The translations under genes were made by a program, and so were the position numbers. A stretch of 64,000 bases of DNA from Lineus longissimus (Eukaryota; Nemertea; Pilidiophora; Heteronemertea; Lineidae): NCBI RefSeq assembly GCF_910592395.1, contig NC_088326.1, positions 11,229,001-11,293,000 on the forward strand, written 5' to 3'. Shown in pieces: positions 12,881 through 58,544 of this stretch. Below the pieces are notes generated by a model. The model saw nothing but the letters and a program-made list of their open reading frames with translations. It did no database searches and was not told where the DNA came from. Within the stretch, counting starts at the first letter, position 1. Each line of letters starts with the position of its first letter.

Positions 12881-13034
12881 TGTATAGTACCCCCAGGTAT
12901 ATGGCACGGCTTAACCCGCCAGCCACGAGGGAATTCCTTTATGGCCCAGTGGTTGGCGCGTTGGCCCCAGAGTGGAAGTTAAGCAACGTTGAGCGCGGTC
13001 AACCTTTGGATCGGTGACCGGCGCGTACAATACA
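12881..13034 (+). mobile_element. 154 bp 5S-rRNA-like TG...CA element, copy 1
   Basis: Ends are TGTATAGTAC...GTACAATACA, flanked by perfect 5 bp direct repeats CCCAT (12876-12880 and 13035-13039). The 3' part (about 12975-13033) follows the metazoan 5S rRNA internal control region: GAAGTTAAGCAACG (box A), then at normal spacing GGTCA and TTGGATCGGTGACCG (box C), ending AATAC. Two other copies of exactly 154 bp lie at 13239-13392 and 58342-58495. TG/CA ends with 5 bp duplications suggest a solo LTR of a small retroelement; a 5S-derived SINE is the main alternative. Confidence 0.8.
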
Positions 13035-13190
13035 CCCATCACCCAGATGATTTCATTTTTTTCATTTTAGCACCCAGCATCCCAGTTGAAACCGCTTGTT
13101 CACCGCCAGACTTACCAATCTCTTTAGCCCTCGTACCCTCATCGCAAAATAAATGTTGCAGGTCACCGGGATAAAAATTGCTGGTATGAG

Positions 13191-13624
13191 CACCCTTGAG
13201 AAGCAATTCCCAGATTGCCGAGAATCAGGCAGGCCTTATGTATTGTACGCGCTGGTCACCGATCCAAAAGTTGACCGCGCTCAACGTTGCTTAACTTCCA
13301 CTCTGGGGCCAACGCGCCAACCACTGGGCCATAAAGAAATTCCCTCATGGCCGGCAGGTTAAGCTGTGCCATATACCTGGGGGTACTGTAAACCTTCCAG
13401 TTTGCCGAGTTGGTCTGTCCTGGGACATGTGGGAAGGAAACGTTACCAGATGGACACAGCTTATTTCAGAACGAACTTTGAGCGCTCGTTTTGACCGTTT
13501 TTCTTGTGACTGTAAGCCAGCCATTCTCCCAGGGCTCAAAGCAGTGTACCCAGGGCAGGCCGCTTGGTAATTATGAAAGACTGATAAGATTCTCGGTAAT
13601 CTGGGGAATTGATTCTCCAGGGTG
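13191..13624. mobile_element. TIR element interrupted by 5S-like copy 2
   Basis: The left arm (13191-13226) starts CACCCTTGAGAAGCAATTCC and the right arm, read on the minus strand, starts CACCCTGGAGAATCAATTCC. The arms are about 36 bp and share CAGATT-CCGAGAATC. Without the inserted 154 bp element and its duplication the unit is about 275 bp. No clear target duplication was seen. Confidence 0.55.
13239..13392 (-). mobile_element. 154 bp 5S-rRNA-like TG...CA element, copy 2 (inverted)
   Basis: This is the same element on the minus strand, 205 bp from copy 1, with nine hand-counted differences from it. The 3' terminus is intact (TGTATTGTAC on the plus strand); the 5' terminus is changed to TTTACAGTAC. 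Flanks are CCTTA (13234-13238) and CCTTC (13393-13397), a 4/5 match to a target duplication. It is inserted inside a larger inverted-repeat element (13191-13624). Confidence 0.75.
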
Positions 13625-13660
13625 GCGAGAGGTGCTTTTCCCTAGATATCATTCACTTAC

Positions 13661-13739
13661 TTGGATATGGGATTGCTGCTGAAGTCCGCAACTTGTAGAT
13701 TTTTACAAAACTTGATGTTCTCCGGTATATCACCAATAT
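13661..13739 (-). CDS. scrib: scribble coding exon 3 (LRR)
   Basis: This is a 79 nt exon, too short for ORF callers. Acceptor TTCTGTTTCAG is followed by ATATTGGTG, and the donor is GTAAGTGAAT (13660-13651). Joined to the last G of exon 2 it reads DIGDIPENIKFCKNLQVADF then SSNPIS, matching the Scribble segment DIPEIPE-IKFCK-L--ADF--NP. It enters in phase 1 and leaves in phase 2. The flanking introns are 1,745 bp (upstream) and about 8.4 kb (downstream, heavily loaded with repeats). Confidence 0.93.
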
Positions 13740-15638
<1,899 letters not shown>

Positions 15639-15670
15639 TCATCAGTGTTTCACGCCCCTTTTCGCAGTTA

Positions 15671-15880
<210 letters not shown>

Positions 15881-16022
15881 TTACTCCTTTAGAATATTAA
15901 GAAGCAGTTTATCCTAAATTTGCTAATCCTGAGCTGCCGTCGAGGGCATTTTTCGCCTGAGAGCCGTACTAAAATAGGTCAAGGAATGCCAGCCATGAAA
16001 CTTTGAACACAGTCTTCACGCG

Positions 16023-16030
16023 TGACGTCA
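16023..16030. promoter_or_regulatory. CRE-like palindrome TGACGTCA upstream of scribble
   Basis: A perfect TGACGTCA lies about 155 bp upstream of the scribble start codon, in a locally CpG-containing stretch (CACGCGTGACGTCATCCCGCCC). CREB/ATF sites of this form are common in proximal promoters. The transcription start is not known, so assignment to the scribble promoter is an inference. Confidence 0.35.
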
Positions 16031-16100
16031 TCCCGCCCAGATTTTGAGCAACAGTGAGGGCACCTGTTGGTAGGCTGTGGAACTGAAAAACAAATGGGAC

Positions 16101-16640
16101 AAATTCAAATTCAAATTAGTTTATTAATTAAAAGGCCCAGAGGGCAACAGTACACACGCTACAATAGAGATACAATGATTTTGATTGAGTACATACATGA
16201 GACATACATAAAATAAATGACATGAGTAACAATGTAAAGTCTATCAGGTCTACCGGGGTCAAACCTGGAATATTTAAATAGAAGTGGCGGTCCTTATTTC
16301 ATCCGATCAGAGAAGCATTTCTGGACAAATATAGACAGTTTCTGACAAATCATAGGGTCGTCATTTGAAAAGAGTTAGATAAACTTATTTTCTCTTGAAA
16401 GACCTGAACAGTTGATGTTGTTCTCATCGATAATTGAGAAAAAATCTTTCCTTGAAGCATCATATTTTGGACAAGCAGTCAGAAAATGAACCTCGTCTTC
16501 TATTGAAGTCCCATTGAAAGGGTATACTCTCTTTTCACCTTTTTCGACCCAGGTGAGTGTTGTTCTTCTTTCAGAGATCTTCTTATCTAACACTATAATG
16601 GTAAGAAAGGCTATGTTTGAATTGGCCATTAAATCAATCA
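16101..16640 (-). pseudogene. 5'-truncated LINE 3' end with broken RT C-terminus
   Basis: Read on minus, codons from about 16629 to 16294 encode the C-terminal part of a LINE polyprotein: SIEDEVHFLTACPKYDASRK is a typical post-RT motif (EDE-HFL--CP-Y---R). The frame is broken by an in-frame TAA at 16377-16375, after which FSNDDPMICQKLSIFVQKCF continues to a second stop at 16296-16294. The 3' UTR contains AATAAA-like sequence and ends in a short (TTTGAA) tail at 16101-16119, typical of CR1/L2-like LINE ends. It is dead on arrival, sitting just upstream of the scribble start. Confidence 0.8.
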
Positions 16641-16644
16641 GTTC

Positions 16645-19600
16645 ACAATTAGTATGACTTTAATCAAATTAATCCCAGCTTGTGTTTACATTCGAGGGAG
16701 CAACTGCAGAATACCCGGGACACTATAGGAAGCAGCTTAATAGGCAAGATAATGTTAAACAAAGTCGCCAACAGGGGTCTCTCCCTTCTTTAATGATGTC
16801 AAAACTATTCACGCTTGAACGAGGGATATTTTTAATGGTGAACGAAACATGACCAAGTGCCCTCACTGTGCATCTCACTGTGTTAGTCACCTTAACACGT
16901 TCGCTTCCACCCCATTTTTTTCAGCGCATCGCCATTTTCCACGTTTGCCAGGTTTTTCGATTTGCTCCATTGCCACACCACGAGTGCAGGATGTGATATG
17001 TTGAACAATCCACCCTTTTCGACCATAACCTTGTTTACAAACAAAGATTCGTCTTAGAAGTGTTATAACATGTACATTGCGTGGTATGGTTGAATTTCAC
17101 TTCCTATACCTGGACACAAGGCCTGATTGAAATTGACTTAGGCCCATATTAGTATTCAGTCAATGTTAGACATTGAGTCCATATCAAGCACTGAACATTA
17201 AGTTTACCTGGGGATAATAATTTGTTTATCAACAAGGGTATGGCCGAAACTGGGGAATTCACTAGTTATCTTTTAATGGAGCTTGATACAACCAAACTAA
17301 TAATGCGATTAAGATGTTATTTCACTCTTGGCCAGTGTTTTCTGTCAGATGAGTAAGAGGAAGGGAACGTGTATGGAAAAGGAGAAATTTCTTTACCGGT
17401 AAAATGTTGTAACTAGCTTACAATATGTTTCAATGCAGATCTATGTACATGAAAATGTACATGAACGGCGTATCAGTTGAAAATGGATACCATACGCACC
17501 GCGATGTACGTAAACATAAATATAAATTGCGGCCGACACACATTGACTCTGGGCGTGCTTTTTTTGAATCAGCACTGACCCCTTTTTACAGCCTGTCAAA
17601 ACATCCTGTTCCTAAAATACTGATTAAAGCCCTCTATCTCCTCGAGTAGCAATTTGTGTCATTATTTGTCCTAAACATTTTACGCATACACATAGAAAAC
17701 ATTTCTTCACGTTGACAAAAGTTCCAAACGATCTGACCTACTTTGGAGGTTTATGTACAAGTAGGTCAACCTGCTGACGTAAGTAGGTCACGGGACCACT
17801 TACACTGACTGGCATGTGATGCACAGGTGTGTACATGTACTTGAGGACATACGTGTACATTGATCCGATGTATATATTGAAATAATGATACTCTGGTTAT
17901 TACCGCTATACATGTATAGCTTGACCTGAAAATCAATAAAAAGAATACAGTAGGATTATTATATTGTTGGTAATTGCATCAATAATTGCGATGTCCCAGT
18001 TTGGGCAAGTTATTCCGGGTCATCCAGCGCTATTACGAAGGAATGATGACCCAAATATACTCTTATACATTGTAGCCTTACAGAAGCTACTGCACTCGGA
18101 CTTCGCTGCATGTGTCGATAATAGATTTGTTTTGATCAAAGGCCCTGGGAATTACATCACAAAGTAAATGGGTGCATCGTAGAGTTTATCAAGTCTCCAT
18201 CATAAATTTAGGCCTATATGTACTTTTTTAGTATGTACAGTGACAAACGGATTCTACGGCAAATTGTTGGCTTGTTATAATTATTTCTCGTCAACCCGCA
18301 TTTCCTAATAATTGGCAACTCAAAAGTGTAGGATCGATAACGCAGGAAATAACGGACTAAGTGTACTAATGGATCAACTGATTTACTAGTAATTATGATA
18401 TACTAGTAAACGGACTAACAGGAAGTGTATAGAAAATTGGGCTCGATCTACAAGACCCGAAAAAGGTAAGTCCATTTCTCTAGATGTTTGATGTTTCTCA
18501 TAGACAACGACCAAGAACAAGACCAAGACCTCACCATCGACTAATCTTCGATAGCGGTCATGATCTACCTCTGGTCTGCCAATAGATTTTATACCTCTAT
18601 CATATGATAAAACTTTGTTTTTTGTTGCCAACTATGAGAGCGGGCCACTGATGCGCAATATTCTCGTTGCCGATCAGTGATGATCTAGAAGCCACGCAAG
18701 TCAATCTGGTCGCAGTCTCCACTTTCCACAGGCGGTATTTTTGAAGGACTTCCTGTCGTCTTGACCAATCAGAAACCGTTAATCCTCCTTCACCGGCCCT
18801 GCTCTCAGCACTGAACCAATCACAAGGTACCGCCCTAATCTTCCGGCCAGCTTAGGAAAGTGGTTTGCGAATGTGCGTTCTCAAAGACCACTGCGCCGCC
18901 GGGAATGGCGAAAGTGGTGACTCGGTTCAGTTCTGTTCCCTATCACAAGAAACGCCACTGTGCCGCCATCGATGAAGGATCGTGAGATCTTCAAGGTGTT
19001 TTTAAAACTCCTCTTTGTTGCATTCCATAAGTCCTATTTCCCGTGGTAAGCACCAGGAGCCGCCACTGTGCCGCATCATCAGCGTTATAGTCACCAACCT
19101 TCAAGTATCTTTCGGATTTTTCATGGTGGCCAAGCAAGTGTCACAGGTTGTGCAATTAATCTATCAAGGAAGCAAGCTGTGAATCCGACAGGTGCGAGGA
19201 ATTGTAACAATTGTTCAAGTGCGGATATACGGCTGGTGAACAGTGGATAGGAGCTTATTATCACGCGCGGAAAACGTGCTTTTTGGCGCAAAAATTAATT
19301 GGATACAGCCGTGCGTGAGGTTGTTTGCAGAAGAGCGCTCAAGCGGAAGCAGAGTATTACTTGTGAGTTGTGGTTTCACTGAAATGTATTTCCGTTCCGA
19401 GCGATTTTTGTGATTGGAAATGTACAATCGTTTTTTTATGTTCAGATTAGCTTGGAACAGATAGTTATGTAATCAGTTTTTTCGTTGTTAGTTTTATGTC
19501 GTTGGTGTACACTGTTTCAATTTGCTAGTGTTGTATTTAGTCAATTATCGTGTTATTGGAGTTGTTTCAAAACTATTTGGCATTGTTTATATAACGGTGT

Positions 19601-20715
19601 AACGCGTCTTCAATATCGAAGTGGCGGATCATCTACACCGATCGGACCGTGCACAAAAACATTGCAAAATATTGTACAGTATCAGAAATTCTGAAATTCA
19701 TTAGAATATTGTTATTGTCTGAAATCAAACCTGGCAAAAGGCAGGTTCAGACTTACGAAGAGCAACGAACGACGAAGAACAAATAATCTACATGTTCTTC
19801 ATCGACAACTTTTTGTACATTTTTTCCCGATTCTTCGTACAACTGAATAGAAATACAGCGTAATTTACATTTTCATAAAATATAAACCCCTTAGTTTTTG
19901 AGTTTGATAAAATTATTGTTCTCGGTTTTTGCCTGCTAGTGACAAGAATTCTCTGCCACGTCTTTGTTTGTATCGGGTTCGTTATTTATTAATCAGTTTG
20001 TGTTGTTTGTGTCCATATTGGTATTGCTTTTCGCATCGTCGTGTGGAGGCACTTTATATTACTCAATCTGCGACTTATAAGATCAGTTCCCATATTTGTA
20101 TTTAATTCAAATTATAAAGCCCAAATACACAGTTGAAATATTCTGGATTTTATGAAAGCGAAACTGACCTTGTAAGTCCAGAGAATTATTTCATCTTCTG
20201 CCATGCTAATTGTCACAAAACGAGGCAACGTATCAGATAAACCCCGTGGGACCCAACGGGTCCTATCCAAATTCGGCACTCTCTGTTCCCCCCCCCCCCC
20301 CCCATATAAATGGGGTCTCCCAACGCATAGAACTCCGTGCTGCGGTCGAGATAATTCACCATGCCAGTGCTTTTTATTGCCACCGTGTCAAGCGGCTCAC
20401 TGGAGTCGGCTATCTTTTCGGTTCAGCTGTTCCATATTTCGCCTCCTGGGGACACCTGTCATCAATTTCCTAAGCATTTAGTCGCCTTCTCATGCTAAAG
20501 GTTAATGTGAAGTCGACACTTATATCTATATACTTCGGTTTGTTGCCTTATTCTGTCCCATTGAACGCTGCAACCGAAAGCATGGTGCTTCCTGTATTTT
20601 GCCTTCCGAAGACAGCGAACTTCCGGCGGGGAAGGAATTGAACCGGCGACAAAGACAACGCATATAGGGTCAATTAAAAAAAAACAAAAAAAACAGCAAG
20701 CGCGGCATATATAAG
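16645..20715. other. intergenic, no gene recognised
   Basis: 18880-19070 is locally GC/CpG-richer and carries three CCACTG-GCCGC words, which could mark a regulatory region. An 18 bp C run lies at about 20287-20304. No coding exon was recognised. Confidence 0.45.
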
Positions 20716-20734
20716 ACGAGGTTCAGGGCAAACC

Positions 20735-21370
20735 ATTTTTGACCGGGAAACTTAAAACAGTGGGCCACATAGAATCAGGGGAGCATACCACACGGAACAG
20801 ATGACTCGGGGAACATAAAACCAAGGCTATCCGGGAAAATACAAACCGGGGAATAGCGGACGACCCGGGAACATAAAGCCCAGGGAATATACCCGGGGAA
20901 CACACATGTAGCCTAGAACGTGGACCACGTAGAATCAGGGGAACATAGCCCAGAGAATAGGGGACTGGGGGAACATATAGAACCTGGGAATAGAGGTTGG
21001 CGGATCCTGGAGCAAACAACCCAGGGAATTGGACCGGTGAAACATAGAATCTGGGCAACATAGTATCCGTGAACATAGGAATCAGGGAACATATGCTTCG
21101 GGAACATAGGGCTTGGGGAACATATCACCTGGGCCACATAGAACCCGGGAACATAGGATTCAGGGAACATATGCTTCGGGAGCATAGGGCTTGGGGAACA
21201 TAGCACCTGGGCCACATAGAACCCGGGAACATAGAACTCGGGAACATTGAACCAGGGAATATAACACCAGGGGAAGAGCAGAGCAGAGATACACCATCCC
21301 GATCTACCTGCGTTTTGCGTAATACAGGATTGATGTTCACCATATATACGCTGCCTTCCTCCAACACGGG
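20735..21370. repeat. 15-16 bp minisatellite with 78 bp higher-order unit
   Basis: Words like GGGAACATAGAACCC and GGGCCACATAGAA recur throughout. A 78 bp block is duplicated at 21073-21150 and 21151-21228. Minus-strand open frames (117 and 158 codons, rich in Cys, Pro, Val, Phe) are by-products of the repeat. Confidence 0.8.
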
Positions 21371-21745
21371 AACACATTGAACTCCTCATCTGCTGGTTTT
21401 GGAAATACTACATACAATGTACATTGTGTCGCAAACCGGAAGGCACAAAACCAATACAACTTCAAAACTGAAACAAAATTCCAATACAAGCCGTCGGCGA
21501 CTGACATCTCAAACGCAAAATCAAGTTATACGATTTTTTTATTCACACAAGTTCCATGATCGATAAACAGGATCGCGACGGTCGTTTCAGAAGCTGTGGC
21601 TTTGATAAAAACTATTCATTTTGCATTTGATCCCGAGATAAAAAGCTTGCTGCTGGATGTGATCGCTTGGTAAGATTCGCAGTGCGGCGGAGAACTGACG
21701 CGGCAAACGTTGCTTGTAAAGTGTTTTTCATATCGTTCGGGCTAA

Positions 21746-21902
21746 AGGTACCTAATTGAACTCAGGAATGTGACCACACTCTATACTATAAGAACCGAGT
21801 TTCAGCAAGTTCTTATGCATAATAACTGCACTTCGACAATGCGTAGAACTGCATTTTAATTTCCTGGACCACCACTTCACTATATATAAACGGCGTACCC
21901 CA
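21746..21902. mobile_element. partial TTAA-type MITE (AGGCGTACGCC family)
   Basis: Shares TTTCAGCAA-TTCTTATGCATAATAACTGCACT and CCTGGACCACCA words with the full copies and ends near AAACGGCGTACCCC. The left end is missing. Confidence 0.55.
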
Positions 21903-22219
21903 AACAAATAATATCGGCGATCTTCTGAAAATACCTCCCCGGCCGCATACCGGGTGCGCACATTTACGATTCGGAGCATGCGAATGTTGTTATTGAAAAC
22001 ACTGCACATGATTCGATCCATGGAGATAAATGAATTGTAAATATCTCTTGTTGTCCTACGATATCAACGACTTGTTTTATGCTCCTGCTGAATATCTAAT
22101 CCACTGTGTGTGTAGCGCTTTTTGCTCAGATACCAATGGACATACAGAGAGTAAATAGGTTATTTCCTCTAACCGGAAACAATGTGACGCATGGTCGGAT
22201 CAAAGGGAAGAGATTGATA

Positions 22220-22290
22220 TTGTTACTCTTCTTCTTCCTCGTCCTCGTCCTCATCATTCTTCTCCTTCTTCTTCTTCTTCTTCTTCTTAT
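22220..22290. repeat. CTT/CTC microsatellite
   Basis: A pyrimidine-only tract of TTC and CTC triplets, about 70 bp. Confidence 0.85.
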
Positions 22291-22545
22291 AAACGTATTG
22301 CACATGTTTGTGATATTTTTTTTTCTCTATTGTATTAAATGTACAGAACTAATGCACCACTTCTGCATCTGCAGCATCATATTGAATTTTATCGATGAAA
22401 GATGAGGTGCGCGCATTAATCGACGAACTATAAATTATCAGCCGTTATCCCCAAGGCGGTTATTGGGATTCCGCAGGAAAAAAACGTCGCATAGGAAAGT
22501 TAGCAGAAATAATTTTTCTCTGTGATGTGATTATTGCTGTTGATA

Positions 22546-22885
22546 TAAAAGAGTACACCGTTTGTATTAACTGGTGGGTCAGGATAATAGAATTGCAGAT
22601 ATGTATACAGTGCGGTATTGCAGTTATGCTAACAAATTAATTGCTGAGACTTGGTAGGCCTACATGTATTTATAGTATTTTTATATTTTTCTACATTGCG
22701 GCATTGTTGAAATTTATGTTCAGTTGGTATTTACACAATTTGAACTTTTCAAACTCAATTACAAATTCTACATTTTTAACAAACGGCGGCCATTAGCGTA
22801 AAGTCAACTTGTTTTCAAATTCAATTACTGTACAAATCATACATTTTTAACGTATGGCGGCGGCCATTAGCATAAAGTCGACTTG
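22546..22885. mobile_element. degraded AGGCGTACGCC-family MITE with duplicated end
   Basis: GAGTACACCGTTTGTATTAA at left and ACGGCGGCCATTAGCGTAAAG at right. The last 65 bp (22749-22812) is repeated diverged at 22816-22882. Confidence 0.5.
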
Positions 22886-23136
22886 TTTTTTTGACACATT
22901 TGGGCTAAATTTCTGTCAATACTTTTTTCGCTCCGGTATTGGTGTACATGTATGCCAATTCTTCGATATGCTCTTAAAATGTGCGCAGAATGTCCATGTT
23001 AGTAAATTTAGGCAAATAGTTGTTTTTATTAGGTGTTGCAGCGAAATAACGCGCATTTGTGCTTGTCGATTTCGACCATCGACCTCCATCAACGCTGTTT
23101 CGTTCGAGTCGATATAATCATAGTTTGCCCTTTGAA

Positions 23137-23585
23137 AGACAGTAGAACAATAGGAAATTAGGCCTGTAGGTGCGAGCGGGCTTTGTTTGGAGACAATAAA
23201 AGTGGATTTGCCCTGATAACCCTTTGATAGACAGTAGAACAATGGGAAATTAGGCCTGTAGGTGCGAGCGGGCTTTGTTTGAAGACAACAAAAGTGGATT
23301 TGCCCTGAAACCCTTTGATAGACAGTCGAACAATGGGAAATTAGGCCTATATGTGCAGCGGGCTTTGTTCGAAGACAACAAAAGTGGATTTGCCCTGATA
23401 ACCCTTTGATAGACAGTAGAACAATGGGAAATTGGACCTATAGGTGCAGCGGGCTTTGTTTGAAGACAACAAAAGTGGATTTGCCCCGATAACCCTTTGA
23501 TGGACAGTAGAACAATGGGAAATTAGGCCTGTAGGTGCGAGCGGGCTTTGTTTGAAGACAACAAACGTGGATTTGGCTCGGTCTG
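23137..23585. repeat. 91 bp tandem repeat, five copies
   Basis: AGACAGTAGAACAATGGGAA units start at 23137, 23229, 23320, 23411 and 23502 and run directly up to the TTAA of composite element A. A diverged single relative (CGAGCAGGCTTTGTTTAAGG) lies at 52890-52940. Confidence 0.9.
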
Positions 23586-23785
23586 TTAAAGCTGAACTGC
23601 ATGCACAAAACCAGAGCGTCCCATGCGGCAATAGTAAGAAATTCAAACGATCGAAAGGTCCTTCTGAATACGGCCTGAAACATGATAGACCTCCAATGCT
23701 TCGATGCACTTGATTTCACAAACCAGCAAGCCACAGGACGATGCAGACAGTCTCGGAGAAATATGGAAGAGAAAAAAATCAAAAT

Positions 23786-30150: not shown

Positions 30151-30200
30151 TGTGGCCGCAGATTCAAATTGGCAAATAGCGCGAAAGTAATCTAAGATTA

Positions 30201-30658
30201 ATGTCAAACGCACGGAAGGGTTGCCTCAAAATGACTAAAACACCGGATGTGAAATTTCAGATCTGTAATTCTGCTGACGAAGATGATTGCGAAACGCAGT
30301 CTCCGCAGACGACAGCGGGAAAGTACCCGACTGTACGCGAGGCTGATTCCTCGCCGCCGCTTTCGCCGTCGAGCGCGGAGCGCAAGCCATTGCGTGTGGA
30401 ATTCATAGGCATGGAGGAGTTAGAGAGAAACTCTATCAAAAAGGATAGCGATGCCACTTCTAATAAGGATTTTATCAAGTTCAAAAGAAGGATAGGGAAT
30501 GATCCCCGCTTTAGGGAACCCCGGTTATCCCTTCTCGGGAAACCGTTGTGCTACAAGGCGCATCGAAAGGATATCAGGTATAGACGCGCCCAGGCGAAGA
30601 TATATAATTTTCTGGAGCGGCCGAAGGATTGGAAATCCACAGCCTATCATCTAATTGT
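30201..30658 (+). CDS. KCNQ: KCNQ-type voltage-gated K+ channel, first coding exon
   Basis: KCNQ (Kv7) channels are tetrameric plasma-membrane potassium channels that set membrane excitability. This exon gives 152 codons plus two bases of cytoplasmic N-terminus: a Ser/Asp/Glu/Pro-rich low-complexity part (about residues 20-65), then a basic part (RYRRAQAK), then YNFLERPKDWKSTAYHLIV. The last block matches the conserved YN-LERP-GW---YH--V motif immediately before S1 in KCNQ proteins. The end at donor GTAAGT (30659-30664), just before S1, agrees with the usual KCNQ exon 1 boundary. The start is the first ATG after an in-frame TAG at 30177-30179; a second Met is at codon 11. All channel exons lie further right. 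The Y-NFLERP form resembles KCNQ1, while SLLGKPL and the RYRR region resemble KCNQ2-5, so I do not assign a subtype. Confidence 0.88.
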
Positions 30659-31825
30659 GTAAGTACACCTTTGTTTATTTCTTCATTGATTTAATCGGTT
30701 AACCCTTTCAGGTATGTGGTCAGCTTTTAAACGATCACATGCACTTCAGTATGCCTGTGTAGAATTTGACTAAAAAACCATTAAAGAGTGAAAGGACTGA
30801 CTGGTGATTTCTAATTCATTATAAACATGTATCATCTAACCATGTTTAAAGGACTTCTTTACCTTTTTATTGATTCTATACAATTCGCCGATTAACCCTT
30901 TAAGTTATATGCCATTGCGGAATCTCACCTGAAAGTCAAATGTTTGAAAGAAAGTAAAATCACTTGAATTATCATATTACAATACAACTTGTGTTGAATA
31001 GTGCATGGCCTTTGGTATTTTTGTTATCAATTTACTGATATGGTTATTGTATTGATTAACCCTCGAGGTTTTACTTGTCACCAGCTGTAGCAATCAGTCA
31101 GAAAACAGACCAATCAAGTAGGCTGAAATAATCACCGGTGTCGTAAGGTTTCAACAAGGCCTTGTCTTTTAGAAAAGAAAGGCGCTTATGTTTTGGAACA
31201 CCTAAATTTCTAAAAACAAACACTTTTTAAAGCCTTTCGAAGAACAATTTTTGTTTCATGTGTCTTTTTCTTGTCAAATGCTTCAACAAGAATGTTTAGG
31301 ATTCGCCATTCTGTTTACTGTCATTATACCTTGGCGAGTCGAACTGGAATACGTTCGGAACAAAGCTAGATTTTCTTCTCAATTTCGAGGAGCTCAATTT
31401 TCTATTAAAGGTAGATGCTTCAGAAGATAATTGTCAAACGGTACACGTTTTTCTTTAGCTAAACCTAAGGACATGTCACAACCTCCACATCATAAACCCA
31501 AGTCTATCATAGGATATCCAGTGGTCGAATCAATGTCGACTGACTATTTCTTTACAGCAGTATTGATAGTCTTCTCGAAGGGCTTTTGACATACTATATT
31601 TGTAGATTTGTGACTTTGTAATATCCGAAAGAAATCAATTTGTCTTTGATCGAACACGGTGGTTACATCCGCCGAGGTCATTTTTGCTTGATGCACTCTG
31701 ACTGGACACCACAATGGCCGTATTGAACATGATAATTAACATAGGGCCCGCCACTTACGGTGTCCAGCTGTCAATACCATCTTTACCGGTCTCTGACATG
31801 AATACATAAGATCAATCGAAGTGTC

Positions 31826-48355: not shown

Positions 48356-48357
48356 TA

Positions 48358-48541
48358 CGGTGGCTGGGAAGGACATCACTTCTTTTTTTCAACATGAAAA
48401 TTTCTTTTTCAAGAAATGTCTCGATCGATGGACTTATTATCTCGAGCGCTCGAGATAAATATCTTGATCGCTCGAGATATTTCCTGGAAAAAAATTTTCT
48501 TGTTGAAAAAAAAATCATGTGATGTCCTTTCCCAGCCACTG
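48358..48541. mobile_element. TA-flanked MITE with central palindrome
   Basis: 184 bp, starts CGGTGGCTGGGAAGGACATC and ends GATGTCCTTTCCCAGCCACTG, flanked by TA. A 22 bp perfect palindrome (48437-48458, arm TTATCTCGAGC) lies inside. Confidence 0.8.
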
Positions 48542-50104
48542 TAGTTCTAACAGCAGACTTGAAAATTTTAAAAAATCGTAACATTCACGGCATTTTTGCG
48601 TACATTATTTGTATTACACATGCAATACACGTGCAATGGACGCCAAATACTGGCAGAGATATGCCGCCGTGAATATCGTATCTCTGCTTAGGAGAATGCA
48701 CGATTGCCTCTGATCAGATTAAACTTTCTTGAACAAGATTAAGGAAAATTGTACAGACTGTCAAAATGAGCAACCTTTTCTCATTGGCTTGCCTCATCGC
48801 TCAAAGGAGTTTGAAGTGTTTGCTTACAAGAAGCTTGTATCTTGCTAACAGGTTCACGCCAATGGTGTTCGGTCGCTACATTAGATTAAAGCTTCATAAA
48901 ATATTCACACCAGCATATTGACCCGTCATTTTGTTACCATACGTTTCAGAGAAACAGCAGAAAAGATTTCTTAATCAATGGCTGCATAAAGAAGGACTTA
49001 GGTAGCATGGGCAGAGATGCTGCAGGACTCAGTTGATGAAACTGCTTGGCCCAGTTTATACTCAAACGGCTTTAGAGACAGACGCCACCATAAGCTTAAC
49101 GAAGCGTTGCCCTTTAGTAAATTCAGTTACAATAAGTAGCGTTCGGAGTTCACGCCAACGTTACTGCTAACGGCGAAGAGTCGGGTCCTGGTCGGCTATT
49201 TTCAGCTGTGCAATAGGATCAGGTTTGAATCAACTAAAAGGTCATCTACCGACTCACATCACCACAATGACCTGTTTTATTGCTATGACCTTCAGAGACG
49301 AAAAATACACTCTTGATACAAAACTTTTTCTGGGAAATGAACAATTTTGCTGTTTTTCACCAGCCTAAAAACCTTTAGGGTTTTTCATTATTCTCTGAAA
49401 AACATCTCTGAGGTGCACATTTGTGTTGGATGAAAAAACTCACAAACTTATTTTCAAAAGCTCATGGAGTGTATCACATATAAAATGCCAATTGCTAATC
49501 GGATTTTGATAGGAGATTAGATGGGGGGCGCAGTTGATCAGGCGTCATTTGAATTCACATCACGTCTATTGACCGGTCGTGTTGCCGCAAGGTCTGAGAT
49601 TAAATTAGATGAGATTTCAATTCGATCGAGCCAAGGCTGTGTCTTATTGGAGTTTTATTAGGAGATTCGCATCTTATTCGCATAGCTCGGAGGGTAGGCG
49701 AAAGGGCCGGGGGCGGCGTGTGCGAATGGTTCAGATCAGATGTTAGATTACAGATGCGGATATCAGTGGTTCGATATATTCACATCACGTTACTGACCTG
49801 CCTGTTGCCATAAGCTGAAGAGATAAAGTGGATATTTCAATCGGGGCTAGAAATGTTTATTGAAAATTTTTCACGAGATTTGCAACGGTGGGTTACGTCA
49901 GACTCTGAGAGGCGACCGGACAGCCTCCTTATGCCGGACCGGAAGTCCCATGTTTAATGACGTGATTCCGCCCTTGTTTGAATTGGCCGCCATTGCCCCA
50001 AAATGGCATAGGCTGGGCCATTTCGTCCATACGACTTCCAGTCAGCCGAAAGATTGCCACGTGGTTCAAATGTTTCATCAAAGAATTTTAGTTGACATGT
50101 GCAT
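48542..50104. other. KCNQ intron, no gene seen
   Basis: It holds a dispersed repeat copy at 49367-49475 and the sequence around 49960-50000 (TTTGAATTGGCCGCCATTG) shared with 7660 and 48100. Confidence 0.4.
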
Positions 50105-50290
50105 GATTTAATGGTGAATCCACTGTGCATGTAGTCAGTGGTGAAAGCACTGTGAATCTAGTGATAAAAACACTATGCATTCAATATAATGAATGCGCTC
50201 TGCATGTACTGTGCAGCCAGTGGTGAAAGCTCTGTGCATGATGAGAGCACTGTGCATCCATGGTGAAAACACATTGCGTGCAATGCATCA
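50105..50290. repeat. degenerate GTGAAAGCACTGTGCAT tandem
   Basis: About eight uneven units of AGTGGTGAAAGCACTGTGCAT. Confidence 0.6.
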
Positions 50291-53200
50291 TTCGATGCAG
50301 AGATTTCTGTTTCCGTAACCTCAGTGCAGTACATCCTTCAACCAATAAACCAACCCGAATAAAGGCGAGTCGTATTTCGCTTTTGCATATTTCTTGTTGA
50401 AATGAATGTCTGCCGTCTGCGGAATTGATCTTGACCTCATTGAAACGAGACTACGAACACTTCAATGATGTTTTCGCTACTCGTCTTGCCTCCGATACAC
50501 CTCCTCCAAAACCATATCCATGTACGCATTGTGTATTCGTAGATCAAAGAAAAAAACCAATATGGTTTTGATGATAATTTTTTTCACTTGTAGGTTTTCT
50601 CCCAATATTGCGGTATTTCCAGATAGATGTCGGGATTATATTCCATAAGTTGTGATGTATGGCTTTGTTGTGTGATTATTCTGAAACTTATATTGAGAGC
50701 GGGGAAAAAAGTGGAGTGGATCTTTCACGTAACTGGTCTAGGTCATGAAGGGGCCTACTCCACAAGTTGTTGCCGTTTAAAGAATTGATAGCGAACTATA
50801 GGTATTGGTTGTCTCACCAAATACCCCGAGCGTGGAGCTAAACGTTGAGCAGAATGTAGCCTGATCCAAGTGGTTATGGTTGTAACATTAAAATCTGCGC
50901 TGCAGCCAAAATGTAGCGCAATGCACTGGTAAGTTACATAGTAAATTATGTTGCGTTGCAACTAGCGTGTTTTAAGAATGGTCTGCAACATATACCAGCT
51001 TGTTTTGCAACACAAGAACAGTGGTCATCATCCAATTTGGATGGACCACTGGCCGTTCGTGTTGGCTCAGTGACCTGTCTTCGGCTCTGTTCACGGCACC
51101 GTTGGATTAGGTCTGTTGGTAAACAGTCACGACGAAGACAAAAAATGTCGTGAAGTATGCGGCAAACAAAAGAAGTGAAGCAGATGGTGCAATTTCTCAA
51201 GTATTCATCTGCTTTCGCACGCGTACGCCAGCAATCTGGGCGGTCGAAAAATCAGATAGGATCCTGCCATCTTGCCTGCGGGGAGATCACAATATTATAA
51301 AAACGATTTCCGTGCTCACACATTTTATCTTCAATTGTTGGTCTAGATAATGTAGGTGTTGATATATCAATAGGCACTTAACCGGGGGCGCTGGGCAACA
51401 ACCGTATTCCGACCCGCCTGTCGGCCATCTTTGATACACCTGATAGAATCGTGACATTCTGGTCCATACACAAACTACAGAGCTTGCGGGTCCAGCCACA
51501 AATATTTAAATAGCTGTCTCCAGGAAAGAAGATAAGGTCTCCCAGGGGTCCGGCCTTGCCCGTTGCTCGCTAGCCAGTCCGCTTTCTCGTTGAATAAAAT
51601 TCCGCGGGGCCATCTTCAAAGTATAACTGATAGCATCTTGACATCCTTGTCGCGATACAACCTACATCCCAAGGGACAGGCCACAATATTGCAAAAATGA
51701 TTTCCTCGCTAGTATATCTCCGATCTTTTGGTATAATCTGATTGACACGTGCGTTTGATCTCCCAAGTCTTCAGATTGAGTTCATGATTGATTGGTTTGG
51801 ATATGCGAGGCGGATTCATTTAGATGATTTGATCAGGATGTAGAAATTCTTTTGGGGTGGGATATAAGAGGGCTTGGCTTTTATATCGCACTGTGATCAG
51901 TCATGCGGAGAGTCCCGCGTGCTGGTTGTCGCTTCGTCTGGGAATCTTCGGTACTTTCTGCTGCGCCAACTCATGTTCGAGACATGTCGAGACGTCCGCC
52001 GTAGCCCATCAAAATAGGTTCGATCCGCTACGCTCCTTTTGCTAGGAACGAATTATCATTGGTCTATGTCCGCCGCAGCTAGATTTACGAGTTGTCTCTA
52101 GATTTAGCTGCGTTTTTTCTAAAAAAAGGTTTGTGCAAAAAGCGCACATCTACGCATGTTCTTGTTGATTTCGTCGACGAAGTCCAAATTTACTCTGTTT
52201 CTTGGTATACAACACCCGACTTGACAATCGGTAAAATTGAGTAAGATATCGCACACGTGTCGGTACAGCCAGCTATCTCTCATGACATAGTCAAATCAAG
52301 GAGTTTCGAGGGGGGTGTGGCCCGATTTGGTAACAAGTCCCTTCATTGGCGACAACTCGCAAAACTTGGCCCTCCTTGTCTGACTGGTGATGCCTGGTAG
52401 TCCAATCGACACCTACAACTTTCTCAATAGGCAGGTTTCGAAACCCCTACGAATGACGGACCTAGGACGAACTACGAAATTTTGCTGGCCGTGTCACCAA
52501 GTCCTGTGCAAGTTCATTTACGCGATAAGTTGAACGAAGAATTGGAACATTTGAAAAAAATTGCCGATAAAGACGTACTTCGTTTGTGTAGCTCTTCTCA
52601 TTGTTTGCGGAACCTGTCTATTGTGATATCAACTTACAGTTGTTGTCGTAACATATTGAGTTGCGGATAGATTGGTTCTTCGGAAATGTCAAGTAGCGAG
52701 GGAAATATTTGATTTTGGTGATTTGATTAGGTTGAAGAAAGCACTCTCTTCTGGAAGTGGGGATGGGACTTGGGTGTACTTCTTTATATTATTGTAGTGG
52801 TTGCAGCAGAAAAACATAAGAGTCTGTTTGTGACTTTATCGTCTATTATTTACCCCTTACCTCGCTCACATTCAACGGAATTAGGGCCGAGACCGAGCAG
52901 GCTTTGTTTAAGGACAACAAACCGTGCATTTGGTGAGGCCTGAATTCTTTTAACTGCCATTTTGAACTTTAAATCCTAAAGCAATTAGAGCTCACTTCAA
53001 AAAGTGAATGTCCATTCAAAATATGGGAGGCTGTTCACTAGAAAACTACATGTATTCATAACAGACTCCCATCCTTGAAGTAGGCATTCACTTTGTTTCG
53101 AAAAAGTTGTAAGTGCTATAGTATTTCAAGTTCTAGCCAAAACCGTGATGCAAATGGTGAACCCTTAAACGAATAACGCTTTTATTTGACCACAGTATGC

Positions 53201-53399
53201 ATATATCTTTCTTTATCGCGTTGCACGGGATCTCCTCCGGGATATAGCAAGCTAGTCGAACGACCAGGGGTCAGATGTGCCGGTCATGACGCAGAAGAAG
53301 CCAGATCTCTATCGGACTCCTTTGAGAGGGCACGAACTAGCAGAACGACAAGCGGAGTCCGGCATGTCAGCCATGCTTTCGTCAAAGTGAGAGCGTACC
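50291..53399. other. KCNQ intron, no gene seen
   Basis: Only a single relative of the 91 bp repeat (52890-52940) and a GGCGACAACTCGCAAAA word shared with 61325 were noticed. Confidence 0.4.
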
Positions 53400-54120
53400 G
53401 GTGTATAGAAGTCTGAATGACCTAGGATAGAATGATCGGGGAACAAAGGGATTCTTATCTGAGCTACATATATTGACGGTCATAGCCTCTATAGAACCAT
53501 ATACCATAATGCATCAGAATACAATAGGCCGGGACACTTTTTCCAGGGTGACATTTTCTACTTCCACATCGTTGTTAAGGTGCGAAATGTCCTAGGATAG
53601 AATGTCCGGAATGTCCGGGAACGTGCGAAATGTCCTATAGGATAGAATGTCCGGAATGTCCGGGAACGAAGGAATTACAGTATGCGCTTTGTTATCTTAG
53701 CTAATGACGGTTATAGTATCTACAGTACCTGATACGTGTACCATAATCCGCATGAATATCATAAAGCTGGGCACTTCTTCCATGGGGATATTTTCAATTT
53801 CTACACTGGCAACCTAACTGAAAGACCACCGGGGCCGGGTCAGAACCACCTTCTATACTTATAACCACATACAATAGTCTGTCAGAATACAATAGGTCTG
53901 GTCACTCTTTCGAGGGGAATATTTTCTACATCTCCACCGGCATCCAGACTGAAAGACCCCAGGGCCTAGGTCAGAACCACCTTTTATAATATAAAGAACC
54001 ACATACTATTAATCAGTCAACACAATAGGACCGGACACTTTCTCTTGGGGGATATTTTCAACTTCCACACCGACAACTTATCTGAAAGATCACAGGGACC
54101 CGAGTCAAACGTGCCATTCA
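53400..54120. repeat. 43 bp and about 125 bp tandem repeats
   Basis: 53575-53670 has two copies of GTGCGAAATGTCCTAGGATA then GAATGTCCGGAATGTCCGGG. Around it, about four diverged units contain CAATAGG-CCGG-CACTTT then GGGGATATTTTCTACTTCC and CTGAAAGACCACAGGG. A relative occurs on minus at 60355-60420. Confidence 0.65.
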
Positions 54121-54799
54121 TGACACCATAGAATGAAATCCCGCGAAGTCACGTTCATATAAGCTACCAAAATCCGCCCGAGACTTCCGGCAGCCCCCTG
54201 TTTCCCCAGCTCGTGACGAGGAAAGAAGTATTTCATTTTCGTTGACGGCTGCGGTGTCGATTTTAATCACCGCAAAGGATCTCTGAGCACGTTTACATCA
54301 CGTGACAGGGCTATCCAATCAGAAATGATGCTGCGCATGTCGTCACGTAAGAGCGGCGAACAAGTTGATAAGGTGAGAGATTTTAAAATTACTTGAAACT
54401 TACGTCAAAAAATTGAATTGACCCACTAATTCTTTTTACGACATTCTCGCAACATTTTTGCGACATGTTGGAAGACTAATCTTGCTTTGTGCATACTATT
54501 AAACATTTTTACAACAAGGTGCTGTAGTGCAAATGTTGTGAAAATGTTACCAGTGTACACTGGCCTTTAAGGCGGACGAAACCTATTGTCGTGACCATCA
54601 GCTGGAAAGCTCACGATGCGCATGTTTTGATGGTTCTAGCTAATGGTGAATTTCACTTTCTTAACAGTTTTCTCCAAAAGCTCGCCATTAAAAAAGTGGG
54701 ATCACCCTCCTCTCCACCACGCCACCAGCACTACCACCATCCCTCCGTTTTATTACTCTAGATCAACATGCTTTAGGAAAGTCTACAGAAACTGTCTGA

Positions 54800-55505
54800 A
54801 TACATCACCTGTCCTTTGATAGTGGAGATATTAGGTGATGTCGATAAACAAAACGTCCCCTGGAGACGTGTCGGCTCTTATTACTAACCTTAGTGTACAC
54901 TAGCTATACCGTCTGACAGTGGAGTCATGGCATTGTGTCAAAGGCTGACGGGTTTGCACTTACCAAAGAGGGTTTGGGGCGAGAATAGTACCGGTGCAAT
55001 CAAGGGCCCTAGAAGGATGCTTGGAGTGGAAGAGGCTGGCGAGAGGCTTGACTTGACGTGTTTACACTCTAACAACAAACCGACGAGAGGTGGCCTGTAT
55101 TTGCTGTCGGAGGGTCTATCCACGGTTGATGTAGAAATGGTCCTAAAAAGTATCTACGAAAATAAACAAAAAACGATCCGGGCGACCATGTCGGCTCTTA
55201 TTACTTAACCTTGCTCTACGTAAAGTCATTACCTTCTGACAGTGGAGTCATGACATTCTGTCAAAGACTGTCGGGGTGGGTGTAGGGGGTACTTATCAAA
55301 GAGGGGTTTGCGGCGGGAATAGTACTGGTGTAATGAAGGGCTCTAAAAAGATGCTTAGAACGGAGATGCTGGTGAGAGGTTTGAGTCGAACTACTTTTAA
55401 AGGTGTTTACATCCTAACGACAAAGCAATGAGCGTAGGCTTTGGGTCATGCCACGGTTGATGTGGAAATGATCCGCCAAAGTATAAACAAAAAATCGGCT
55501 ACGGT
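54800..55505. repeat. 320 bp satellite, two full units and one partial
   Basis: Units begin TCGGCTCTTATTAC at about 54869 and 55191, share CTGACAGTGGAGTCATG, CAAAGAGGGTTT and CCACGGTTGATGT, and the tail of an earlier unit precedes them. A 93-codon open frame inside the first unit is broken in the second. Confidence 0.7.
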
Positions 55506-55974
55506 GTGGAGTAAAAATATTACTTAGTGTACTATATAAACCACTGCATGTAATGTACAAACAAGTTCGATGATCCCTGAAGTGAACAAAACCATTTCAC
55601 CATATGTTAGCCAAGCTCGCCTGTACATCAATGAATATGATACAATGTAAAATGCACTAATAATACCATTCACATTCATTTGAACCAAACATAATGGAAA
55701 TCAAATTGATCAAATTCATGTGCAACCTGTCATCGATTGAACTAGATTTACGATACCCAAACATTGAATCATTTGCGCTATTATAAGGACGGCGCTAACC
55801 TGGATGACTTTTTTATGATTACACCGAAAGGTTGGAGGTGGTTGGTGTTGTTATCAAACTATTCCTAGGGGAAACAGAACAATTGCTTAGATTTATACTT
55901 TTATCGGACTTATGTGCTATTGGAGCGAACTCAAAAAAACGTAATCACTGTTAATACTACATGTAACTTCCTAT

Positions 55975-56185
55975 TACTAACTTCGAAATGCTCTGACTTT
56001 GATATTCGATTCCCGTCCGGAATTTTGTTACTAAACTCAAAAGTCTTTTACTAACTTCGAAATTGTATTGGCTAACTTCGAAATTGTATTGACTAACTTC
56101 GAAATTGTATTGACTAACTTTGACATTGCATTACTAACTTCGAAATTCTACATATTACTAACTTCGAATTTTCTGTTCGAAGTTT
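55975..56185. repeat. 22 bp minisatellite ACTAACTTCGAAATTGTATTG
   Basis: About nine units, each with a palindromic TTCGAA core, the middle three nearly identical. Confidence 0.8.
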
Positions 56186-56239
56186 CAAAAATTCTCTTGC
56201 TAGCTGCGGAATTCTGTGACTAACTTGGTAAACTGTACA

Positions 56240-58205
56240 AGGAACTTTCAAGCGATGCAGACAATTGCGAGGGTTTAAGTTGGACTTTGTTAAAAGTCCC
56301 ACTATTGGTCGTGGCTAATATGCAATTGCGAAAGCTTTCAGTTGTTGATGGCTAAAAAACCCACCACACAGATTCGCCATCGGCCTTGGCGTCGCCCGCT
56401 TTGTAAACATCGCTATCGTCTGCCGACGATGTAATCATATTTCAATTTCGTCTGTTCAGGCCATAACAAATCGTTGATGATTGGGTGTCTCCCACAAGGC
56501 GAGTCTAACACCCCTGGCACACACTCAACAGTAATCACACTGGATGGGCAAACTGTTATGAATGACCTCCGAGGATATACATTGATTTCCTTCAGTACAT
56601 TCCCTGGCCTTGGCAACGGAATCCGCCATGGATAGAGCCACTATCAGTGGCAATGCGCCCAGCTGTAACAACACCTCACCGATACATTTCCATTTTTCTT
56701 CTTTCAGTAGAAATCGCGATTCACGATTTAACATTGCTGCAACAAATATAGGTTACTTGTTATGTCATTACGAACTAATGAAATACAAATACTCATTTTT
56801 TGCTCCTGGCCAGTAATCGTATTGATTGATTGAAGTCGATATTGCATAAACTTGATTTTTCTGCAGATTTACAAACTTTTGTGATATGTTGTTTTTATTG
56901 CGGCGCAGTGCTTTGTGGGTAAACATGGCGGTCTAACTGTACGTTGCAGTTATGAAATAAGACCAATAACTATTTCAAGGATCCATTTTTGACGACGTTA
57001 TCAAACCACTTTGTTTTATTTCATTCCCTCTTTTAGAAACACCCGTTTCAACATGGCCGTCAAAAATGGATCTTCCGGTTATTTCTTATTTGCTTGTTTT
57101 TATGTTTAGCCAGCTGACTGCTTCCTTGGAAATTTCCTCAGGGAGTACAATAACATAATGAGTTATTTTCTGCTTGCTTTGTGTCAACTTAGCACCACGG
57201 ACTGTTTACAGATGTTCGTGTTGACACCTACAGTATCCATACAAAAGCATGAAGGGGCCCATTTTCTTCCGTGCTGTTTACCCAACATGCTACCGATAGC
57301 GCTGACGTCTGATCGCTGCGCTATTCAATCAATGCGCGATCAACCAGTAACAGAATGGTAGGAGATTTTCATGTCCTGCGGCGCTGTGTTGATAGCCTTT
57401 TAAGTATCTTTGCCATGTTCGTGTCATTTTCTGTCAGATGCAATGGCTAGTATATGTTGATGGCGATCTCTGCGCGCACTGGGATGGGGTGGGTCTTGCA
57501 TCATTGGGAAGCGTGACTACTTTGTTTTGATGTATTGTCAGCTAGGAGAGACTCCTATCGGCGATTTATTAATCTGACAAGACTTTGGGACATGATCAAG
57601 GGAATGCTCTGAGATATCTATTTCATCACTACACAAGAATTTCTGTTGACACAAATTGTTCGCGCCTACTCATCCAGCTACTCACGAAAAAAATCACATT
57701 TTTTGTATCATTCACTACGAACTTTCGTCTGGTTTTTCCAATACAAAAATAAATTTTCGTGATTTAATTTTCGCACATCGATGTTACTCGCGAAATTCGA
57801 AAAAAAGCTCGCGAAAATTTGGTGGTTTACAAACCCTCGACGATATGTTGAAGCAGGAGGATCGTTGCAATAAAAGCAATTGCTTGTTATGAGGAAAATC
57901 TCAACTATAACACCTGGTATCATTTTGGCTCCTTCACAACGCGCATGCTCAGTCTTTGTTGTCACAAGTTGCCATGGCAACCGAGGATTGGTCTCGTCTC
58001 TGATCCTGTGCCTTGTAATTGAAATTAAACAAGCTGATAAAACGCTTGAATCGAATCATCATTATCGGAAACTGTTCGAAGTTTCCGTGTCTTGGTGATC
58101 AAAACACGTCCGGCTCTTTGAGGTAAATTATTGAAAAAAGTGTTTTAGGTAATTTGTAGAAACTTTTACCAAGTACTTATCTTGGCTACTTGTAGCTATC
58201 GAAGC
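56240..58205. other. KCNQ intron, no gene seen
   Basis: No repeat or exon recognised. Confidence 0.35.
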
Positions 58206-58207
58206 TA

Positions 58208-58544
58208 CAGAAACGCCTCTCTATTACGGACACCCTTGGGACTGTCACATGCTGCCCTTAATTGAGAAGTGTCCTGATTACAGAGGTCAAATTCAATGGA
58301 ATGGAAGCAAACATGCCAAATGTGGTGTCCTAAGAAAGACGTGTATAGTACCCCCAGGTATATGGCACGGCTTAACCCGCCAGCCATGAGGGAATTCCTT
58401 TATGGCCCAGTGGTTGGCGCGTTGGCCCCAGGGTGGAAGTTAAGCAACGTTGAGCGTGGTCAATCTTTGGATCGGTGACCGGCGCGTAAAATACAAGACG
58501 GTGCCCTTTTTGTAGAGAGATGTCCATTTAGGGAGATTCAGCTG
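58208..58544. mobile_element. pogo/Tc1-type MITE split by the 154 bp element
   Basis: Starts CAGAAACGCCTCTCTATTAC after TA and ends GGGAGATTCAGCTG before TA (58545-58546). The inner 154 bp at 58342-58495 is the 5S-like insertion with its AGACG duplication. Confidence 0.75.
58342..58495 (+). mobile_element. 154 bp 5S-rRNA-like TG...CA element, copy 3
   Basis: Five differences from copy 1 and again exactly 154 bp, with perfect 5 bp flanking repeats AGACG (58337-58341 and 58496-58500). It is inserted into a pogo/Tc1-type MITE (58208-58544), whose two halves resume on either side. The 5S-like boxes lie at about 58436-58485. Confidence 0.8.

Follow-up and report, generated by a model that had tools for sequence, protein, structure and literature searches.

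Within the 64,000-nucleotide stretch of Lineus longissimus DNA analysed here (the window), three separate 154-bp units combine ends typical of LTRs with a segment resembling 5S rRNA, which raises the question of what kind of element produced them and how it was mobilized. Judged by length and anatomy, all three are solo LTRs of Ajax, which is a non-autonomous LTR retrotransposon of Lineus longissimus, 421 bp in length. The explanation that best accounts for all the data, and which is considered very probable as a whole, is that these solo LTRs arose through a Pol III RNA, the proteins of a Gypsy helper and LTR-LTR recombination.

The units in the window and their 5S-like segment

The boundaries proposed in the first-pass annotation proved to be right (Table 1). 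All three copies are 154 bp long and, as had been counted by hand, copy 1 differs from copies 2 and 3 by nine and five substitutions respectively, with no indels. The reported TG...CA-type ends are present with slight variation, copy 2 starting with TTTACAGTAC and copy 3 ending with GTAAAATACA. The unit ends TGTATAGTAC/GTACAATACA are inverted repeats over 9 of 10 bp. The target duplications of about 5 bp were likewise recovered, perfect around copies 1 and 3 and matching at four of five positions around copy 2.

The previously noticed 5S similarity in the 3' part of the unit was borne out by alignment to the 5S gene of the host itself: in this ungapped alignment, unit positions 95-140 pair with 5S positions 48-93. 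The local alignment of copy 1 with 5S scores 60, a value reached by none of 1000 dinucleotide shuffles (maximum 36). This 5S-derived fragment is only about 46 nt long and spans box A/IE/C; Rfam did not find 5S in the window at the gathering score, nor in copy 1 even at E values up to 10. No run of four T is present in copies 1 and 3, and no tRNA was found in the window by ARAGORN. Upstream of the 5S part, copy 1 contains TGGCCCAGTGG, which resembles the consensus of a tRNA-type A box; this motif was absent from the first-pass annotation.

Table 1. Ajax units of the window (positions counted from its first letter), hybrid elements and candidate helper
Feature	Position	Strand	Remarks
Ajax solo LTR copy 1	12881..13034	+	154 bp
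Copy 1 target duplication, left	12876..12880	.	CCCAT
Copy 1 target duplication, right	13035..13039	.	CCCAT, 5 bp
Copy 1 tRNA-type A-box-like motif (presumed)	12942..12952	+	unit 62-72
Copy 1 5S rRNA promoter-like segment	12975..13020	+	unit 95-140; 37/46 vs host 5S 48-93
Ajax solo LTR copy 2	13239..13392	-	154 bp
Copy 2 target duplication, unit 5' side	13393..13397	.	GAAGG on minus strand
Copy 2 target duplication, unit 3' side	13234..13238	.	TAAGG on minus strand; 4/5
Copy 2 5S promoter-like segment	13253..13298	-	36/46 vs host 5S
Ajax solo LTR copy 3	58342..58495	+	154 bp
Copy 3 target duplication, left	58337..58341	.	AGACG
Copy 3 target duplication, right	58496..58500	.	AGACG, 5 bp
Copy 3 5S promoter-like segment	58436..58481	+	39/46 vs host 5S
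Hybrid L002, 200-bp Gypsy LTR A			duplication TTTGC/TTTGC
Hybrid L048, 200-bp Gypsy LTR A			duplication AACTT/AACTT
Hybrid L131, truncated A-related LTR			duplication ACCCC/ACCCC; junction within internal region
Hybrid L077, 156-bp A relative as LTR			no clear duplication
Hybrid L004, 224-bp LTR B			duplication CAGGA/CAGCA, 4/5
Candidate helper A, 12.2-kb Gypsy element	G000:C3:12351684-12363922		LTRs differ 2/200

Solo and complete elements across the genome

The unit is a genomic repeat with at least 42 matches among those listed (40 of 507 candidates were scored); the viral contigs contained no exact match to a 29-mer taken from it. Insertion sites were analysed in a sample restricted to intact units with clear flanks, from which four exact duplicates were dropped. 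The sample comprises 19 solo units, window copies 1 and 2 included, and 46 LTR-internal-LTR elements, which are not all independent insertions because segmental duplicates remain (L013/L014 and the C14 group). Solo units were taken from the best-scoring unit matches and full elements mainly from the PBS (primer-binding site) pattern; since the two were selected differently, their ratio in the sample is meaningless. The duplication is perfect in 18 solo units and 4/5 in one. When, as a control, the left flank of one element was combined with the right flank of another, 5/5 matches were obtained in 10 of 4160 pairs and matches of at least 4/5 in 145 of 4160. The single 4/5 solo unit is window copy 2.

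Direct copies paired within one 5-bp duplication and enclosing a PBS-like start and a polypurine tract (PPT), the arrangement which the first-pass annotation had advised looking for, are represented by the 46 full elements. Their duplications match at 5/5 positions in 32 cases, at 4/5 in 12 and at fewer in 2. The internal region measures 112-114 bp in 41 of the 46, and the typical element of 154+113+154 = 421 bp also has the commonest total length (16 of 46, range 409-430). At 113 bp, the internal region has no room for the genes that an LTR element would carry. Arrays of three LTRs inside one duplication were found as well. L039, considered as a longer element, proved to be a truncated 3' end of Ajax and was rejected as such.

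The PBS-like start is conserved among Ajax internal regions. Out of 111 places with the PBS pattern, 100 were listed and all of these were inspected within their loci; the locus-orientation rows with an internal start, also 100 in number, include some single places seen twice (L010/L024, L050/L051), and arrays were counted once. As the PBS of elements picked by this pattern is partly selected, counts are given from loci selected by their LTR: the 22 internal starts so obtained (two places seen twice) read TCTGGCAGACC in 19 and TCTGGCGACC in 3. The 23 internal ends from LTR-selected loci show AATGA after a purine tract rich in G, with a T within the tract in two of them and after it in one. In copy L017, three extra bases TGA, matching the PPT end AATGA, separate the duplication GCAAT from the LTR and are read as a trace of PPT-primed synthesis. 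Ajax has two direct LTRs, a PBS, a PPT, a length below 1 kb and no ORF, as does a TRIM, and is a TRIM with a predicted Pol III-type promoter.

Two other kinds of element were weighed against this anatomy. Ginger-type DNA transposons have inverted ends and 5-bp duplications, and the imperfect 10-bp inverted ends of the unit could suggest a MITE of that type, inserted by cut-and-paste; this reading was rejected, with practically no probability left to it, because direct LTR pairs enclose a PBS/PPT internal region, three-LTR arrays lie within single duplications, and both the PPT-slip copy L017 and hybrids with Gypsy LTRs exist. The 5S box A/IE/C segment, the tRNA-type A box and the occurrence of single units in the window would suit a 5S-derived SINE (SINE3), inserted by a LINE via target-primed reverse transcription, but the fixed ends, the absent tail, the 5-bp duplications of 18 of 19 sampled solo units and, decisively, the 46 paired forms with PBS-like start and PPT make it scarcely credible, and it was rejected. 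SINE3 elements such as HaSE3 share a 5S promoter segment with Ajax, but according to the available text of PMC3272025 they end in a LINE-type tail, have duplications of variable length (in two cases 8 and 19 bp) and lack an LTR pair, where the present unit has fixed ends and 5-bp duplications.

The elements recovered here correspond in length and anatomy to Ajax-1_LiLo, for which the available text of Kojima 2024 (PMC10886601) gives a length of 421 bp, 5-bp duplications, box A/IE/C, 1114 LTRs versus 151 internal regions, and tRNA-Leu as the primer tRNA. The 5S boxes within the LTR and the TRIM size (421 bp in Ajax-1_LiLo) are common to the present units and to the published Ajax-1_LiLo and Ajax-1_NGe; published Ajax and the present units also have in common 5-bp duplications, a PBS-like start, a PPT, many solo LTRs and the Lineus longissimus host, and no difference in length or anatomy was found from that text. 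The first-pass annotation had thus correctly inferred solo LTRs, two-LTR forms being found elsewhere in the genome, and had recognized the right kind of element in proposing an animal counterpart of Cassandra; a new animal Cassandra was however rejected, Ajax having been published from the same species (PMC10886601).

Hybrid elements and a candidate Gypsy helper

At five loci, the LTR on the 5' side is foreign while the internal sequence and the 3' LTR belong to Ajax (Table 1). Six odd rows were inspected for the reverse polarity, and no Gypsy LTR stands at the 3' end of any of them. The candidate helper A, which is bounded by one of these foreign LTRs, is flanked by TAGCC duplications and has the PPT AGGAGGGGGGTGA. 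Its Pfam matches include RVT_1 (5.7e-27), RT_RNaseH_2 (1.8e-33), Integrase_H2C2 (1.7e-17) and rve (4.3e-9), with Gag, zinc-knuckle and protease matches below the Pfam cut-offs (8.2e-4, 0.002 and 0.018). Its PBS is near-identical to that of Ajax: copies L012, L030 and L042 share its PBS start TCTGGCGACCTTCCC, but most Ajax PBS have one A more than the Gypsy PBS (17 of 20 distinct LTR-selected internal regions). An LTR-B element on C10 has AGGAT on both sides and an rve match (1.4e-11). The 9.2-kb L128 on C5, both LTRs of which are A-related, gave no Pfam match in the six open frames scanned, out of 15 listed that are 90 aa or longer.

A Gypsy lineage that has the PBS TCTGGCGACC and LTRs starting with TGTATGGTAT is the most likely helper, because the hybrids with Ajax internal region and Ajax 3' LTR carry its LTR as their 5' LTR. 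Within one genome, this lineage would comprise two families of LTR, A and B. The hybrids themselves are probably strand-transfer fossils, formed between a Pol III-type TRIM RNA and co-packaged Gypsy RNA. They would thereby identify the lineage that helps Ajax, and would indicate that what ties such a TRIM to its helper is a shared PBS together with similar LTR tips, not homology over the whole LTR.

The proteins might instead come from another, unseen family whose PBS is merely shared by Ajax and by Gypsy A and B. LTRs A and B are indeed rare (13 and 12 places by their 5'-end pattern, hybrids included) and the A/B elements are candidates on sequence alone, but to insert a hybrid, one integrase must have acted on a DNA with a left end from Gypsy and a right end from Ajax, and this alternative is deemed unlikely. 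A post-insertion origin, by recombination or nesting of neighbouring Ajax and Gypsy copies, would make the hybrids uninformative on the helper. Rearranged or truncated Ajax copies do occur (L039, L049, L072, L075), and L131 alone fits equally well, its junction being inside the internal region rather than at the PBS. This origin is nevertheless quite improbable, as three hybrids (L002, L048, L131) each lie within one perfect 5-bp duplication, L002, L048, L004 and L077 are joined exactly at the LTR/PBS boundary, and the sampled flanks of the five hybrids (100-400 bp per side) have no sequence in common.

With a Gypsy helper, the working of Ajax can be proposed as follows. Pol III would start near unit position 48, where the 5S +1 would map, and produce a short RNA. 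The Gypsy reverse transcriptase would copy this RNA, with a tRNA at the PBS and the PPT as primers, and the integrase of the same Gypsy would insert the resulting DNA with a 5-bp duplication. Later LTR-LTR recombination would leave solo LTRs, including the three copies of the window. Hybrids would form when Gypsy plus-strand strong-stop DNA is transferred onto the Ajax minus strand via the shared PBS.

Relation to other TRIMs and significance

The analysis independently recovers Ajax as an animal analogue of the plant TRIM Cassandra. According to the available texts of PMC10853983 and PMC10886601, both carry a 5S Pol III promoter in their LTRs and lack proteins of their own, Cassandra measuring 565-860 bp versus 421 bp for Ajax. 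The Ajax unit is set apart by retaining only the short 5S fragment described above, and Kojima argues that the two arose independently (PMC10886601). Helenus, a tRNA-type TRIM, resembles Ajax in the Pol III-type promoter of its LTR and is tied to Gypsy by its PBS in animals, but has tRNA boxes A and B and, in animals, 4-bp duplications, whereas Ajax has 5S boxes and 5-bp duplications (PMC10886601, available text).

How the dependence of TRIMs on an autonomous element is maintained is not known according to Kojima, who indicates no helper for Cassandra; the available text of that paper (PMC10886601) mentions neither a helper nor hybrids for Ajax, and searches of the open-licence literature found none. 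What the present analysis adds to published Ajax is a candidate helper. Hybrids bearing one LTR from each parent would point to a helper directly from sequence, and may be searched for in the case of any orphan TRIM.

Ajax solo LTRs in the window

Three units of the window had been described in the first-pass annotation as an animal Cassandra-like element. This reading is right but its novelty does not stand, the element being already known as Ajax, a 421-bp TRIM (LTR 154, internal region 113, LTR 154). Their common length of 154 bp, the 9 and 5 substitutions separating copies 2 and 3 from copy 1 without any indel, and the claimed 5-bp duplications were recovered as described (see table). A BLAST search with copy 1 as query returned these three as the only full copies in the window. 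Copies 1 and 2 are oppositely oriented with unlike duplications and therefore do not form one element; all three units are isolated, solo LTRs.

Features of the window and of the rearranged locus L075
Feature	Position	Strand	Detail
Ajax LTR, copy 1	12881-13034	+	duplication CCCAT
Ajax LTR, copy 2	13239-13392	-	duplication (G/T)AAGG on minus strand, 4/5
Ajax LTR, copy 3	58342-58495	+	duplication AGACG
Tandem array	1-491		147-bp unit
Tandem array	5371-5564		25-bp unit
Tandem array	11600-12269		17/34-bp units (and 144)
Tandem array	23128-23575		91-bp unit
Open frame	15671-15880	-	by eye, presumably scribble-type (LRR) exon
Open frame	30180-30662	+	by eye, presumably KCNQ-type exon
Locus L075	G000:C11:9716888-9719250		inverted Ajax pieces

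Neither open frame of the window gave a Pfam match. Ajax was described from Notospermus geniculatus and L. longissimus (Kojima 2024, PMC10886601), and that paper reports 5S box A/IE/C inside the LTR, 5-bp duplications, a primer-binding site (PBS), a polypurine tract (PPT) and, in L. longissimus, a length of 421 bp with 1114 LTRs versus 151 internal regions. The present elements have in common with Ajax the 5S segment of the LTR, the 5-bp duplications, a PBS-like start, a PPT and the length of 421 bp, which is the commonest total among intact elements (16/46). Given this length and the published traits, the window units are therefore Ajax-1_LiLo solo LTRs, matched by length and anatomy.

Anatomy of the element across the genome

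The genome assembly (391,118,348 bp, 30 contigs), in which the window occupies G000:C20:11229001-11293000, was searched, and the first 30 loci fetched correspond to 29 places, one being seen twice (L010/L024). Solo units account for 13 of these places, all 13 with a perfect 5-bp duplication; the others are 11 two-LTR elements, two three-LTR arrays, one internally deleted element (L021) and two elements with a foreign 5' LTR (L002, L004). L013 and L014 are one duplicated insertion, because their flanks are common to both. A larger sample provided 46 intact two-LTR elements with internal regions of 106-115 bp (113 bp in 25 of them). The duplication matches at 5/5 or 4/5 positions in 44 of the 46, as compared with 5/5 in 10 and at least 4/5 in 145 of 4160 control pairings of flanks from different elements. 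The two exceptions are L062 (2/5) and L017, where GCAAT lies on either side and three extra bases, TGA, precede the 5' LTR; these are the exact end of the PPT, which suggests that synthesis of the second strand began three bases too soon. At loci selected by LTR alone, the internal region starts with TCTGGCAGACC or TCTGGCGACC in 22 of 22 cases (20 distinct) and ends with a G-rich purine tract followed by AATGA in 23, a T interrupting three of the tracts.

The earlier inference of solo LTRs is thus borne out by paired LTRs, PBS-like start, PPT and 5-bp duplications, and the direct unit pairs proposed as a check, enclosed by a single duplication and carrying PBS and PPT, are found in the 46 intact elements. 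The two-LTR structure, the duplications, the conserved internal start and the PPT rule out both a SINE and a MITE.

Seven multi-LTR arrays (LTR-int-LTR-int-LTR, some deleted: L010, L028, L050, L067, L086, L103, L110) were also encountered; the outer duplication is a perfect 5 bp in four, 4/5 in L050 and absent from L028 and L067. Template switching or unequal exchange may have produced them. Six elements of near-identical structure spread along contig C14 (L089-L092, L094, L095) look like segmental copies.

The 5S-like segment of the LTR

Alignment to the species' own 5S gene upheld the claimed 5S match: positions 95-140 of copy 1 are identical at 37 of 46 positions, ungapped, and the local alignment score was reached by 0 of 1000 shuffles. 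The host has at least 47 5S copies among the matches listed (44 on C6, three on C5). Identity of the segment is higher to host 5S than to fly (34) or human (32) 5S, to each of which host 5S itself is 39/46 identical. By the same alignment, 5S +1 would map to unit position 48. Upstream of the 5S part, the tRNA-type A box, for which we assumed the consensus TRGCNNARYGG, is matched in 93 of 102 distinct ungapped units, against a background of 2/415 window slices on one strand; since the units are relatives, this putative box is one ancestral feature. Kojima 2024 (PMC10886601) points out that the 5S-like sequence of Ajax is similar, in its upstream portion, to some SINE3 elements of Lepidoptera. 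Conservation along the LTR is nearly flat (0.96-0.99), which in young copies gives no special support to promoter boxes. The 5S-like segment was not recognised by Rfam, and copies 1 and 3 contain no run of four T. Ajax would probably be transcribed by Pol III.

Three loci of C13 (L082, L083, L116) have in common a 5' LTR from which unit positions 97-126, the bulk of the 5S-like segment, are missing, and a 3' LTR that aligns to unit 1-49 only. They may be segmental copies, or may form a subfamily devoid of 5S box A.

Hybrid elements and a candidate Gypsy helper

At four of 100 PBS places listed, the 5' LTR is foreign and the rest of the element, internal region plus 3' LTR, is Ajax. The foreign LTR is the 200-bp LTR A in L002 (TTTGC/TTTGC) and L048 (AACTT/AACTT), the distinct 224-bp LTR B in L004 (CAGGA/CAGCA) and a 156-bp relative of LTR A in L077, whose duplication is ambiguous. 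In L131, a fifth hybrid from the LTR A search, Ajax begins at internal position 64, right after a truncated A-related LTR, and ACCCC/ACCCC flanks the whole. By eye, we take CATAAAAG (TATA-like) and AATAAA to be signals of LTR A. L075 is a complex Ajax-Gypsy rearrangement, with a Gypsy-type PBS (TCTGGCGACC) after one Ajax internal region; the sequence past it, read in antisense, resembles RVT_1 weakly (1.1e-4, short of the Pfam threshold).

LTR A occurs at 13 places (5' 28-mer pattern) and LTR B at 12 (27-mer pattern), hybrids and relatives counted, while the reversed patterns gave 0 matches. On C3, the candidate helper A spans 12,239 bp between two LTR A copies inclusive (2/200 differences, TAGCC/TAGCC), with the PBS TCTGGCGACCTTCCCC and the PPT AGGAGGGGGGTGA. 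In Ty3/Gypsy order, its pieces match gag, zinc knuckle and protease, all three short of the Pfam thresholds, and then RVT_1, RNase H, integrase zinc-binding and integrase core. On C10, two LTR B copies with AGGAT on either side enclose an integrase core match and a PBS containing CTGGCGACC. The Ajax copies L012, L030 and L042 start with TCTGGCGACCTTCCC, whose first 15 letters are identical to helper A; one extra A is present in the PBS start of the remaining 17 of the 20 distinct LTR-selected internal regions. The LTR tips TGTATAGTACCCCCAG and TGTATGGTATCCCCAG are common to Ajax and LTR A. An A-related element on C5 (L128; 8.9 kb from LTR start to LTR start) has PBS and PPT, and none of its six open frames scanned, including one of 482 aa, matched Pfam.

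The hybrids have these joined structures and duplications, and Ajax and Gypsy have the PBS in common. Gypsy plus-strand strong-stop DNA (LTR and PBS) may have annealed to the PBS end of the Ajax minus strand and not to its own; the completed product would be Gypsy LTR-Ajax internal-Ajax LTR, as observed in the hybrids, and a single integrase would insert both ends. Gypsy-Ajax co-packaging and this strand-transfer step are probable on such grounds. The principle is already known, since template switching was proposed for complex LTR elements of cereals by Sabot and Schulman (PMC1950507). The new part consists of the hybrids and the candidate helper to which they point, provisionally and from sampled loci. 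Ordinary Ajax copies would likewise be moved by these Gypsy families.
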